NCBI GenBank assembly: GCA_902582235.1
Contig: CACHQX010000001.1
Span: 16,768-80,767, forward strand
Origin: an uncultured Pelagibacteraceae bacterium
Lineage (GTDB): Bacteria > Pseudomonadota > Alphaproteobacteria > Pelagibacterales > Pelagibacteraceae
Reading direction: 5' to 3'
DNA: 64,000 nucleotides
Below are positions 26,692-32,631 of the stretch, piece after piece; within the stretch, counting starts at the first letter, position 1; every line of letters starts with the position of its first letter. The position numbers were made by a program, and so were the translations under genes. The notes beneath the pieces were generated by a model, which was given only the letters and a program-made list of their open reading frames with translations, had not been told where the DNA came from and did not search any database.

Positions 26692-27732
26692 TTATTTGTT
26701 TAGAGAAGATGCAAAATTCCAAGAACAATCAAAGCTTGGGATATAAACTCTATCTAATGACGTATTGCCAAAACTTTTTTCAAAAAGATTTAACCATTTA
26801 TCAACTTGTTTAGGTTTTTTATCTTGGCTTCCAACTTGTGCAGTTATTGTTCCATTTGGCTTAAGAATTCTTTTTAAAGATTTGATATTTTTTGCAGCCA
26901 AATCAATACAATACTGATCATCGTTTAAGTCCACATAAATTTTATCATACTTATTATCTTCAACTGATTTAATACTTTCAAATGCATCTCCCCATACACA
27001 TTGCACATGATTTTTTGTGGTTGCTTTCTTACTTACCTTAGATAAATATTTCTCACACATTGTTACAACTTCAGGATCTAATTCATACCAATCAATTAAT
27101 TTAAAACCTTTAGATATACATTCTCTCGCAACACCTCCGTCTCCTCCGCCAATAATTGCTGTTTTATCATTTGATGGATTAAGTTTTAAACCAGAGTTAA
27201 CAAATGTAGAGCTATATAAATGTTCATCGTTTTCCGCTACTTGAAGTTCACCGTCTATAAATAAGGATTTACCAAACTGTTCTAAATCTAAAATTTCAAT
27301 ATTTTGACCTACTTTTGAAGTGAAGTTTTCTAAAACATCTTTTACCATATAATATTTTTTTAAACCTGGTGAGCTATAAATATCATCATAATAACTTATT
27401 GTATCTCTATTGAATTCTTTTTTAACAATTCTTTTATGTTTAATTTCTTTTTTTAAAATATCGTAGGCAACATTAGGATTTATTTTACCGCATGTAAAAA
27501 AATCAAAACTAATAATTCCTCTTTCTGGGAAAGTATGAAAACTAATATGACTTTCGGCTAATAACGCTACAAGGGTAAAGCCCTGTGGTTCAAATTTGTA
27601 CTTAGAGATCTCTAAAACAGTTACTTTTGCCTTTTTTGATATCTTATAAACAAGTTTTTCAAAAAATTTTGGTTCGTACTCTTTTTTAGTACCTATAATA
27701 TCTAAAGTGACGTGCTCCCCAACCTTCGTCAT
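26692..27732 (-). CDS. S-adenosylmethionine decarboxylase--aminopropyltransferase fusion (SpeD-SpeE)
   Basis: One 346-residue chain holds two successive polyamine enzymes. Residues 1 to about 125 are a bacterial AdoMet decarboxylase: LLAESHISFHTFPERG contains the Ser that becomes the pyruvoyl group after self-cleavage, and DFFTCGKINP follows. From about residue 130 it is a spermidine synthase: FGKSLFIDGELQVAENDEHLY and the decarboxy-AdoMet motif IIGGGDGGVARE. The later aspartate motif, usually DSSDP or DSTDP, reads VDLNDDQYC, so the amine acceptor may differ from putrescine. Products are a polyamine and MTA. It is last in an operon with mtnA and a class II aldolase, which would handle the MTA. 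Confidence 0.9.
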   Translation of the reverse strand: MTKVGEHVTLDIIGTKKEYEPKFFEKLVYKISKKAKVTVLEISKYKFEPQGFTLVALLAESHISFHTFPERGIISFDFFTCGKINPNVAYDILKKEIKHKRIVKKEFNRDTISYYDDIYSSPGLKKYYMVKDVLENFTSKVGQNIEILDLEQFGKSLFIDGELQVAENDEHLYSSTFVNSGLKLNPSNDKTAIIGGGDGGVARECISKGFKLIDWYELDPEVVTMCEKYLSKVSKKATTKNHVQCVWGDAFESIKSVEDNKYDKIYVDLNDDQYCIDLAAKNIKSLKRILKPNGTITAQVGSQDKKPKQVDKWLNLFEKSFGNTSLDRVYIPSFDCSWNFASSLNK

Positions 27733-27738
27733 AAAAAG

Positions 27739-28386
27739 TTATCCTTTTTTATAGTTTTTAACTTTTTCTAATATTACATCCATCTCACTTGATGAAAGAA
27801 TCTTAGGTTCTCCTAACTTTATTGCATTTATATATTGATGGCAAATATTTTCAACTTCTTCTGCGAGTTCGAAAGCTGAGTTCAAGTTATCCCCATAAGC
27901 AACTTGACCGTGATTAGACATCAAGCATGCTTTTCTATTTTTTAAAGCTTCAACAATATTGTCAGATAATTCTTGTGTTCCAAAAGTTGCATACTTTGCA
28001 CACCTTATATTTTCTCCTCCAGCTAACGCTATCATGTAGTGAAAAGCTGGAATGTCTTTGTTATGTGCTGATACAGCCGTTGCGTGTGGTGAGTGCGCAT
28101 GAACGACGGCTTTTGCATCAGTCTTGTTTAAGTAAATATCTTTATGAAATCTCCACTCAGATGAGGGTTGCAAACCTTTTTCATCATAATTCCCTTTTAA
28201 GGATACAAATACGATATCCTCAGCTTTGAGACTGTCATACTTTTTGCCTGATGGAGTAATTAAAAACCCCTCTTCATTATTATTCTTAGCTTTAAGTGAA
28301 ATATTTCCTGATCTTAACGGAGATAAATTTGTACTATTTAATTTTAGAGCAAATTTTATTATTTCCTCTCTACTTTTAACGTCCAT
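27739..28386 (-). CDS. class II aldolase, FucA-like; probable 5-methylthioribulose-1-phosphate aldolase
   Basis: The 215-residue zinc aldolase resembles E. coli FucA along its whole length: PSSEWRFHKDIY has the catalytic Glu, VVHAHSPHATAVS two zinc His, IPAFHYMIALAGG and YATFGTQELS the rest. The Glu in SSEWRFH is that of aldolases, which argues against the dehydratase MtnB. No fucose genes are nearby. Instead mtnA is one gene upstream and speDE six bases downstream. This matches Ald2 of the DHAP shunt, which splits 5-methylthioribulose-1-phosphate into DHAP and methylthioacetaldehyde. Fold is certain; the substrate is inferred from context. Confidence 0.85.
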   Translation of the reverse strand: MDVKSREEIIKFALKLNSTNLSPLRSGNISLKAKNNNEEGFLITPSGKKYDSLKAEDIVFVSLKGNYDEKGLQPSSEWRFHKDIYLNKTDAKAVVHAHSPHATAVSAHNKDIPAFHYMIALAGGENIRCAKYATFGTQELSDNIVEALKNRKACLMSNHGQVAYGDNLNSAFELAEEVENICHQYINAIKLGEPKILSSSEMDVILEKVKNYKKG

Positions 28387-28699
28387 AATCTTTCAAATAT
28401 TTTATAAATAAATACCCAAAAATTACACCTACGCCTATTAGAATATACTGATAAAGCTTTAATAATAAAAACTGTGGTGGAAGCTCTCTTTCATAAGGGT
28501 TCTGCATAAAAAAGTTTTTTGAACCGTCTTCATACAAATCAACAGGTCCAATAACTAAATAAATTCCATAAATTGCTATATAAACGCATGGCGCTAAAGA
28601 AAGATAAATTAATGTCTTGTTATTTTTAACTATACTAAGCCAATTAGCTGAAACTCCAACTAATAAAAGACAAACAAGTGATAAAATAAGTGGGTTCAT
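28376..28699 (-). CDS. small membrane protein of the mtnA operon, unknown function
   Basis: This 107-residue protein has three probable helices: LILSLVCLLLVGVSANW, TLIYLSLAPCVYIAIYGIYLVIG and YQYILIGVGVIFGYLFI. Between the second and third is a polar loop, DLYEDGSKNFFMQNPYERELPP. It overlaps the aldolase by 11 bases and mtnA by four (ATGA), so it is translated as part of the operon. I recognise no family. A role in export or uptake of a product of MTA metabolism is possible but has no direct support. Confidence 0.7.
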   Translation of the reverse strand: MNPLILSLVCLLLVGVSANWLSIVKNNKTLIYLSLAPCVYIAIYGIYLVIGPVDLYEDGSKNFFMQNPYERELPPQFLLLKLYQYILIGVGVIFGYLFIKYLKDYGR

Positions 28700-29766
28700 T
28701 TAAATAAATTTTTCAATCCTTTTTCTGATGCTTCACAAATTCCTTTTTCTGTTATTAAACCAGTTATATATTTTGCTGGTGTAACATCAAATGCTAAATT
28801 CATGGCCTTACTTTTATTTGGGTATATCTGTATTTTTTTCAATTTTCCATTTTCATCAACCCCTTCAATTTTTGATAACTCCTCTGAACTTCTTTCTTCA
28901 ATTGGAATATCTTTAGAATTTTTAATTTTCCAATCAATAGTTGAACTTGGTAATGCTACATAAAAAGGCACATTATTGTCTTTCGCAGCAAGTGCTTTCA
29001 AATAGGTTCCCACTTTATTACACACATCTCCATTAGATAATGTGCGGTCAGTTCCCACAATACACATATCAACTTGCCCCCTTTGCATTAGAATTCCACC
29101 TGTGTTATCGGCAATAATTGTATTTTTAATGCCCTCTTCATTTAATTCATATGAAGTTAAATTCGCACCTTGGTTTCTGGGCCTGGTTTCATCTGCCCAA
29201 ACATGAACTGGAATACCTTTCTTGTGTGCGTGATAAATTGGTGAAGTGGCTGTACCCCAATTAATTGTTGCCAACCATCCTGCATTGCAATGAGTTAAAA
29301 TATTTACTGTATCCTTTTTTTTATTATATATTTTTTCAATTATTTTAAGACCATTTAAACCAATATTTTTACAAAACTTTATATCTTCCTCGCAAATATC
29401 GTTAGCTTCATTTATTGCGATATCTAAAATTTTATCACTGTTAAGACCTGAAATTTTGTTCATCATTCTATCTACTGCCCATTTTAAATTAATAGCCGTT
29501 GGTCTTGAATTAATTAGTTCTGTTGCTGATTTTTTCAAAAAAGATTGATCATTATTTTCTAATATTGCTAAAACTAAACCATATGCAGCAGTTGCTCCTA
29601 TTAATGGGGCACCTCTTACTTCCATTGTTTTAATGGCATTGATTGCTTCTTTTAGTGTTTTTAAATCTTTTATTACAAATTTATGAGGGAGCTTTGTTTG
29701 ATCAATTATTTTTACAACTTTATTTTCAAACCAGATTGTGCGGTGTTCTTTACCCTCAATTTTCAT
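28696..29766 (-). CDS. mtnA: S-methyl-5-thioribose-1-phosphate isomerase
   Basis: MtnA converts 5-methylthioribose-1-phosphate to the ribulose isomer in MTA salvage. The 356-residue protein has MEVRGAPLIGATAAYGL near the N-terminus, ILTHCNAGWLATINWGTA with the catalytic Cys, VDMCIVGTDRTLSNGDVCNKVGT with the catalytic Asp, and WADETRPRNQGANLT. These features separate it from eIF2B subunits. It overlaps its neighbours by four bases and one base. The presence of MtnP at 31 kb and a class II aldolase two genes downstream gives a complete short salvage route. Confidence 0.95.
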   Translation of the reverse strand: MKIEGKEHRTIWFENKVVKIIDQTKLPHKFVIKDLKTLKEAINAIKTMEVRGAPLIGATAAYGLVLAILENNDQSFLKKSATELINSRPTAINLKWAVDRMMNKISGLNSDKILDIAINEANDICEEDIKFCKNIGLNGLKIIEKIYNKKKDTVNILTHCNAGWLATINWGTATSPIYHAHKKGIPVHVWADETRPRNQGANLTSYELNEEGIKNTIIADNTGGILMQRGQVDMCIVGTDRTLSNGDVCNKVGTYLKALAAKDNNVPFYVALPSSTIDWKIKNSKDIPIEERSSEELSKIEGVDENGKLKKIQIYPNKSKAMNLAFDVTPAKYITGLITEKGICEASEKGLKNLFK

Positions 29767-31153: not shown

Positions 31154-31191
31154 TAAAAAAACCCTCTTCCTCTGGTAGAGGGTTTTTTTTT
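31154..31191. terminator. bidirectional intrinsic terminator
   Basis: The stem ACCCTCT (31161-31167) pairs with AGAGGGT (31177-31183), with a 9-base loop. A run of A precedes it and a run of T follows, so it can end transcription in both directions. It serves the outer-membrane protein gene on the plus strand and mtnP on the minus strand. The mtnP stop codon lies in the T-run. Confidence 0.88.
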
Positions 31192-32062
31192 ATTTGTTCA
31201 AAACCCTGCCAGCAATAGTTTTAAGTTTATCTTTTGTTTTTTTTGTTCTTTTTTCAGGCGCTGTTATAATTGCTAAATCTAAACAATTATTAGTTGGATC
31301 TTTTGGGTCTATATGTTTTTCAAAATTTTCAATAAGATTTTTAATCATATTTTTTGCTTTTGCAGCATTTCCCATGAGAACTTTAATAACTTGTTGAACA
31401 TCAACATTTTCATGATCTGGATGCCAACAATCATAATCTGTAACCATTGAAACAGATGCATATCTTATCTCGGCTTCCCTAGCTAGTTTTGCCTCAGGCA
31501 TATTGGTCATTCCAATTACATCAGCTTTCCAGGATCTATATAAATTTGATTCTGCTAATGTAGAAAACTGTGGGCCCTCCATTACAACGTAAGTACCACC
31601 TCTTTGATAATCTATTTTTTCTTTTTTGATGGCATCTTCACAAGCGTTCATAAGTCCAACTGAAGTAGGACTTGCCATTGATACATGGGCTACAATTTCA
31701 TCTTCAAAAAAAGTTTTGTTTCTTGCAAAAGTTCTGTCAATAAATTGATCGATAATAACAAATTTTCCTGGGGGCAAGTTTTCTTTAAGAGACCCTACTG
31801 CTGAAATAGATACAACGTCTGTAACTCCAAGTTGTTTAAGAGCATCAATGTTGGCTCTAAAATTTATATTGGATGGATTAATAAAGTGTCCTCTTCCGTG
31901 TCTTGGTAAAAAATAAACTTCTTTACTTTTATAATTCGTTTTTAAAATTTTGTCTGAAGGTTTTCCCCATGGAGTATTAATGTCTAATAACTCTCTATCT
32001 TTGAATTCTTCAACATCATATAGTCCACTTCCACCAATTATTGCTAATTTATTGTTTACCAT
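31190..32062 (-). CDS. mtnP: S-methyl-5'-thioadenosine phosphorylase
   Basis: MtnP splits methylthioadenosine (MTA) with phosphate into adenine and 5-methylthioribose-1-phosphate. IIGGSGLYDVEEF is the phosphate loop, FLPRHGRGHFINPSNINFRAN is diagnostic of the MTAP branch, and IGMTNMPEAKLAREAEIRYAS precedes VTDYDCWH. The track ORF begins at 32095, but the family start is the internal ATG giving MVNNKLAIIGG (32062), so I use that (290 residues). It is divergent from apt, which recycles the adenine, and one block away from mtnA. Its 3' end sits in a shared terminator. Confidence 0.94.
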   Translation of the reverse strand: MVNNKLAIIGGSGLYDVEEFKDRELLDINTPWGKPSDKILKTNYKSKEVYFLPRHGRGHFINPSNINFRANIDALKQLGVTDVVSISAVGSLKENLPPGKFVIIDQFIDRTFARNKTFFEDEIVAHVSMASPTSVGLMNACEDAIKKEKIDYQRGGTYVVMEGPQFSTLAESNLYRSWKADVIGMTNMPEAKLAREAEIRYASVSMVTDYDCWHPDHENVDVQQVIKVLMGNAAKAKNMIKNLIENFEKHIDPKDPTNNCLDLAIITAPEKRTKKTKDKLKTIAGRVLNK

Positions 32063-32103: not shown

Positions 32104-32631
32104 ATGGACTTAAAAAAATTTATTAGATCTATACCTAATTATCCAAAGAAGGGTATTTTATTTAGAGACATTACCACTTTAATAAAAGATGAAAAAGCTT
32201 TCGAAGAGACAATTAATCAAATAATTGAAAGATCTAAAAAGTTTAAATTTAATAAAATTGCAGCTATTGAATCAAGAGGTTTTGTGTTTGCATCCGCTGT
32301 TTCATATACCCTCAAAAAACCGTTTATAATGTTAAGAAAAAAAAATAAGTTACCAGCAGAAACTCACTCAATTGATTTTGAATTAGAGTATGGAACTGCG
32401 ACTATTGAAGTACATAAAGACTCTATAAATAAAGACGATACAGTTTTAATCATTGATGATTTAATTGCTACTGGTGGAACAGCTGAAGCAGCTTCAAAAT
32501 TAATTGAAATTTCAAAGGGAAAAGTTGGAGCATTCATTTTTGTAATAAATCTCTTTGATTTAGGTGGATCTGATAGATTAATAAAAAAAGGTTTTAAAGT
32601 AGAGAACTTAATTGAATTTCCAGGTCACTAA
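32104..32631 (+). CDS. apt: adenine phosphoribosyltransferase
   Basis: Apt makes AMP from adenine and PRPP. In 175 residues IRSIPNYPKKGILFRDITTLI is the usual N-terminus, IAAIESRGFVFASAV is the adenine site, and VLIIDDLIATGGTAEAA is the PRPP-binding signature. It is divergent from mtnP with 41 bases between starts, and mtnP is the enzyme that releases adenine from MTA. The placement suggests a joint function. It overlaps the convergent GT2 gene by four bases. Confidence 0.95.
   Translation: MDLKKFIRSIPNYPKKGILFRDITTLIKDEKAFEETINQIIERSKKFKFNKIAAIESRGFVFASAVSYTLKKPFIMLRKKNKLPAETHSIDFELEYGTATIEVHKDSINKDDTVLIIDDLIATGGTAEAASKLIEISKGKVGAFIFVINLFDLGGSDRLIKKGFKVENLIEFPGH

Follow-up and report, generated by a model that had tools for sequence, protein, structure and literature searches.

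Fusions of AdoMet decarboxylase (SpeD) and aminopropyltransferase (SpeE) in a single polypeptide have been characterized from two SAR11 bacteria, "Candidatus Pelagibacter ubique" HTCC1062 and HTCC7211. Expressed in Escherichia coli, both give rise to spermidine in a delta-speD strain, so that their SpeD domain is evidently active, and to spermine plus thermospermine in a delta-speE strain (PMC11107197); norspermidine is formed from diaminopropane and spermidine from putrescine (PMC11107197; Li et al. 2024). According to PMC8437039, the fusion gene and its broad substrate range had already been described by Green et al. 2011. The literature searched does not show spermine in native SAR11 product pools.

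The window analyzed here, by which we mean the whole stretch of 64,000 nucleotides from an uncultured member of the Pelagibacteraceae, carries a gene of the same kind on its minus strand (26692-27732). It has an ATG start and encodes 346 residues without an internal stop; this ORF, its Pfam domains and its full-length homologues bear out the preliminary description of a decarboxylase and an aminopropyltransferase in one uninterrupted chain. Pfam matches comprise AdoMet_dc (residues 7-109, 8.2e-27), Spermine_synt_N (119-167) and Spermine_synth (170-338, 3.6e-22). The decarboxylase domain, of class 1b (27406-27714, minus strand), scores above curated cut-offs (94.1 bits versus 25 for Pfam AdoMet_dc; 95.8 versus 75.65 for NCBIfam TIGR03330), and the processing and catalytic residues S63, H68 and C83 of the T. 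maritima enzyme align with S61, H66 and C81, all of them invariant. The aminopropyltransferase domains (26719-27378, minus strand; residues 119-338) display the attributes of that superfamily, namely a Spermine_synth score of 79.3 bits, a tetramerisation domain (27.6 bits), the GGG[DE]xG motif and a DxxD loop. Against the canonical SpeE equivalog TIGR00417 this part reaches 96.6 bits, far under the cut-off of 249.55, and the protein is therefore not classed as a canonical SpeE. The HTCC1062 (WP_011282223) and HTCC7211 (WP_008544956) proteins have the same architecture and length, approximately 76% identity to the window protein, and its DLNDDQ[YF]C, GGGDGG and PSFDCSWNF motifs. By analogy with them, the window gene very probably encodes the SAR11 bifunctional polyamine enzyme, acting as a forward aminopropyltransferase with relaxed specificity. 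Since fusions with the same motif have already been characterized, the finding represents known biology and is ordinary for SAR11.

In the pathway proposed, the SpeD domain of the window copy would cleave itself at S61 to generate a pyruvoyl group and then decarboxylate AdoMet; the C-terminal aminopropyltransferase would transfer the aminopropyl group to putrescine, yielding spermidine and, owing to its relaxed specificity, could also use spermidine (giving spermine and thermospermine) or diaminopropane if present. The genes alongside would be suited to handling the by-product, methylthioadenosine (MTA). Along the minus strand, the order is methylthioadenosine phosphorylase (MTAP/MtnP; 31190-32062), two ORFs that few relatives possess, mtnA (methylthioribose-1-phosphate isomerase, above its NCBIfam cut-off; 28696-29766), a hydrophobic ORF of 107 residues without a family (28376-28699), a class II aldolase resembling fuculose-phosphate aldolase (27739-28386) and the fusion itself, an arrangement kept in most relatives. 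The adenine phosphoribosyltransferase gene apt (32104-32631, plus strand) adjoins that for MTAP divergently, and its product may recover the adenine. The 107-residue ORF, which overlaps both mtnA and the aldolase gene, occurs in 24 of the 77 relatives' loci with sufficient flank. From mtnA through the fusion, neighbors among the four genes either overlap or are separated by 6 bp, a spacing that suggests an operon.

Acireductone dioxygenase was absent from all 46 genomes searched, and the neighboring aldolase could be rejected as MtnB (75.7 bits versus a cut-off of 137.05). Given this absence and an aldolase that resembles fuculose-phosphate aldolase rather than MtnB, MTA salvage by a DHAP shunt, as described for other bacteria (PMC10986504), is the best inference from the MtnP, MtnA and putative Ald2 genes present, the aldolase being the probable methylthioribulose-1-phosphate aldolase (Ald2) of such a route. 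MTAP is encoded in 38 of the 43 fusion-bearing genomes. Four others (G012, G067, G093 and G103) have a short ORF of the nucleosidase family beside the fusion instead, and in the remaining one (G099) the fusion lies at a contig end; neither type of gene was found in the three genomes (of 46) that lack the fusion. The MTAP-MtnA-Ald2 set is common to the window and HTCC7211, whereas HTCC1062, which we take to be G103, has the short nucleosidase-like ORF (L132:9820-10344). In compact form, the locus shows how a bacterium among the most abundant in the ocean would make polyamines and clear the by-product, MTA disposal being arranged in either of two ways at this one site.

The proximity of these disposal genes supports aminopropyl transfer in vivo, and bears on the possibility that the enzyme functions mainly in reverse, scavenging imported spermidine and norspermidine to give putrescine and diaminopropane. 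Reversal of SpeE has been proposed for HTCC7211, in which putrescine rose after spermidine feeding and diaminopropane after norspermidine feeding; however, the effect was unclear in HTCC1062, an alternative Dys2 enzyme was not excluded in the case of norspermidine, and other SpeE enzymes are irreversible (PMC8437039). The forward direction is favored both by the active SpeD that shares the polypeptide and by the MTA disposal encoded next to it, and we consider a predominantly reverse role unlikely.

A further alternative, which was the central proposal of the preliminary description, concerns the substrate-binding loop, VDLNDDQYC (26908-26934, minus strand; residues 267-275), from which it had been reasoned that the acceptor might be an amine other than putrescine. 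The loop does depart from the DSTDP found in 10 of 12 comparison SpeE sequences (eleven alphaproteobacterial and one from a phage; the other two read DSSDP and DRPDP), but what had seemed unusual proves to be a fixed SAR11 signature in which both functional aspartates are conserved. All 105 fusions read from the genus have DLNDDQ[YF]C, with DLNDD invariant, and the same loop recurs in a related genus (L136); the two single-contig genomes presumed to be those of HTCC1062 and HTCC7211 encode VDLNDDQFC. In HMMER alignments to solved enzymes, D268 and D271 match both aspartates of DLADP in Medicago thermospermine synthase, DLTDP in Pyrobaculum SpeE and DSSDP in the Plasmodium enzyme; the DxxD pair is thus retained, and loss of the substrate aspartates is ruled out. 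In the B. subtilis enzyme (DSTEP), Glu occupies the second of these positions. Leu after D268 is common to thermospermine-type enzymes (DLxDP), and the odd change is that of Pro to Asp at position 272. The best sequence matches in the PDB, Medicago truncatula thermospermine synthase (6bq2) and Pyrobaculum calidifontis SpeE (7xif), have a DLxD loop like that of the window fusion, but differ from it in having GGGEGS/A in place of GGGDGG, Pro after DLxD, and no SpeD domain.

GGGDGG, the second motif binding decarboxylated AdoMet (27133-27150, minus strand; residues 195-200), has the Asp and Gly of spermine synthases, and the alignment places a Glu (E217) in motif 3. Under published rules, Asp and Gly in motif 2 with Glu in motif 3 constitute the spermine-synthase pattern (PMC11107197), which the window fusion, by our reading of the alignment, appears to fit. 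The acceptor-side loop PSFDCSWNF (26713-26739, minus strand; residues 332-340) has Phe where spermidine synthases have Tyr, as does P. calidifontis SpeE.

That the LNDD motif marks agmatine, diaminopropane or another amine as acceptor, with putrescine excluded as a substrate, therefore seems very improbable. The characterized orthologues do accept diaminopropane and spermidine, but with an identical motif they also convert putrescine to spermidine in E. coli (PMC11107197), which undoes the inference drawn from the loop; the two aspartates are retained and, as described below, the genome encodes a route to putrescine. The preliminary description had named characterized relatives with the same LNDD motif that are ordinary spermidine synthases as evidence that would refute its proposal; this is largely what the orthologues provide, except that they are broad spermidine, spermine and thermospermine synthases and not strict spermidine synthases. 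Agmatine as the main acceptor was likewise rejected; in the relevant section of a JBC study, which does not name the Pelagibacter fusions there, no thermospermine synthase save that of T. thermophilus is reported to use it. A false lead is thereby removed, in that the odd loop carries no signal of a new acceptor, and the curated SpeE models are seen to under-score the SAR11 family.

The window indeed has no speA, speB or speC near the fusion, as first noted; the genome nevertheless encodes putrescine synthesis elsewhere, in a cluster on contig C4 (L114:2513-6772) comprising in a row an alanine-racemase-fold decarboxylase, a deoxyhypusine-synthase (DHS)-like gene, N-carbamoylputrescine amidase and agmatine deiminase. 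Such clusters have been described, and arginine is the substrate shown for homologues of this enzyme from Pelagibacter (PMC9992855); with the C4 cluster, this makes it likely that putrescine is supplied from arginine via agmatine, besides uptake. The DHS-like protein scores above the cut-off of NF002699 (1,9-bis(guanidino)-5-aza-nonane synthase), which suggests the coupling of two agmatine molecules rather than simple formation of homospermidine.

The fusion is widespread in the genus. It was found in 43 of 46 near-complete Pelagibacter genomes, a sample selected for completeness and including several single-contig assemblies, and full-length homologues occupy 80 loci of public Pelagibacter-type genomes, by which the source of the window is identified as Pelagibacter (SAR11). 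Identity between the window protein and its SAR11 orthologues is 73-99% over 345-346 residues, apt and DUF6165/GT9 flanks are shared, and orthology, the invariant DLNDD and local gene order together place the window gene in the SAR11 AdoMetDC-APT family. The notion that sequencing or assembly joined the two genes artificially, for which one could cite the origin of the window in a draft genome of 26 contigs, has practically no probability, as the same open frame of 344-348 residues recurs at 105 loci and in complete single-contig genomes, and stop-free full-length homologues in most genus-mates rule out an assembly or frameshift error. Another alphaproteobacterial locus (L138) likewise has SpeD and SpeE in one frame, but with 27% identity to the window fusion and the canonical DSTDP it is probably a separate, independent fusion event. 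Genomes of another family in the same order (G037-G060) have neither the fusion nor the DHS-like gene, G050 alone giving a single weak match to SpeD; polyamine synthesis there must therefore differ.

Structural prediction from sequences of the genus alone gave a poor AlphaFold model (pLDDT 58.9), which was set aside; with viral homologues added to the alignment, the mean pLDDT was 85.7 and the pTM 0.71. The best full-length fold matches of this model in the PDB are chains of human spermine synthase (3c6k; 368 columns, E 2e-24), at approximately 21% identity. The N-terminal domain of the human enzyme is AdoMetDC-like but is not a working decarboxylase. Superposition over both domains gives an rmsd of 9-10 (9.6 for 3c6k), so that the relative placement of the domains is unsupported; they may be arranged differently in the window protein, or the model may be wrong there. 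As modeled, the likeness is architectural, and indicates neither a common origin of the fusions nor the channelling of decarboxylated AdoMet between domains that the preliminary description proposed.

A scan of viral contigs revealed full-length fusions with approximately 61% identity to that of the window. Seven uncultivated, pelagimyophage-like IMG/VR contigs (L158-L164), all shorter than 10 kb, carry an apparently intact fusion between nrdA and nrdB (L158:2807-3850; L161:3001-4044; L160:563-1606; also L159, L162, L163 and L164). There, nrdB follows the fusion immediately or after a short distance, nrdA immediately precedes it where the contig reaches that far, and primase and ruvC genes are found around them; the nrdA and nrdB genes share 88-90% identity with their counterparts in Pelagibacter phage Mosig EXVC030M. 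This cultured phage and HTVC008M have the same nrdA-nrdB locus, but other small ORFs fill the slot of the fusion. In the tree, six of the seven phage contigs form one clade apart from bacterial sequences (support 100/100); L160, the remaining one, shares 94% identity with L158. Another viral-contig locus (L165) was set aside: it groups with bacterial G186 in the tree, and no nrdA or nrdB lies beside its fusion.

Among 50,697 phage genomes, no record with 80% of the fusion was present, and a Microcystis phage SpeE used as query retrieved no relatives from the viral contigs. PMC9992855 lists SpeD and SpeE in viral genomes solely as unfused pairs, from one phage and two viruses, and the open papers on SAR11 phages that were searched mention nothing similar, apart from one that has a speH gene in phages of freshwater; for this reason the phage copy, judged from open papers and contigs under 10 kb, is probably undescribed. 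On balance, we favor the view that the cargo between nrdA and nrdB in uncultivated T4-like pelagiphages is a complete, catalytically intact fusion of the host type, in which case a single phage gene could convert host putrescine and AdoMet to spermidine or spermine in the course of infection and couple this to nucleotide synthesis. A functional phage copy would extend the metabolic repertoire of infecting pelagiphages to the making of polyamines. The catalytic motifs are kept in the phage fusions, with the exception of L160, in which DLNDN replaces DLNDD; by this comparison of sequences, position 272 appears to tolerate change while D268 and D271 stay in place.
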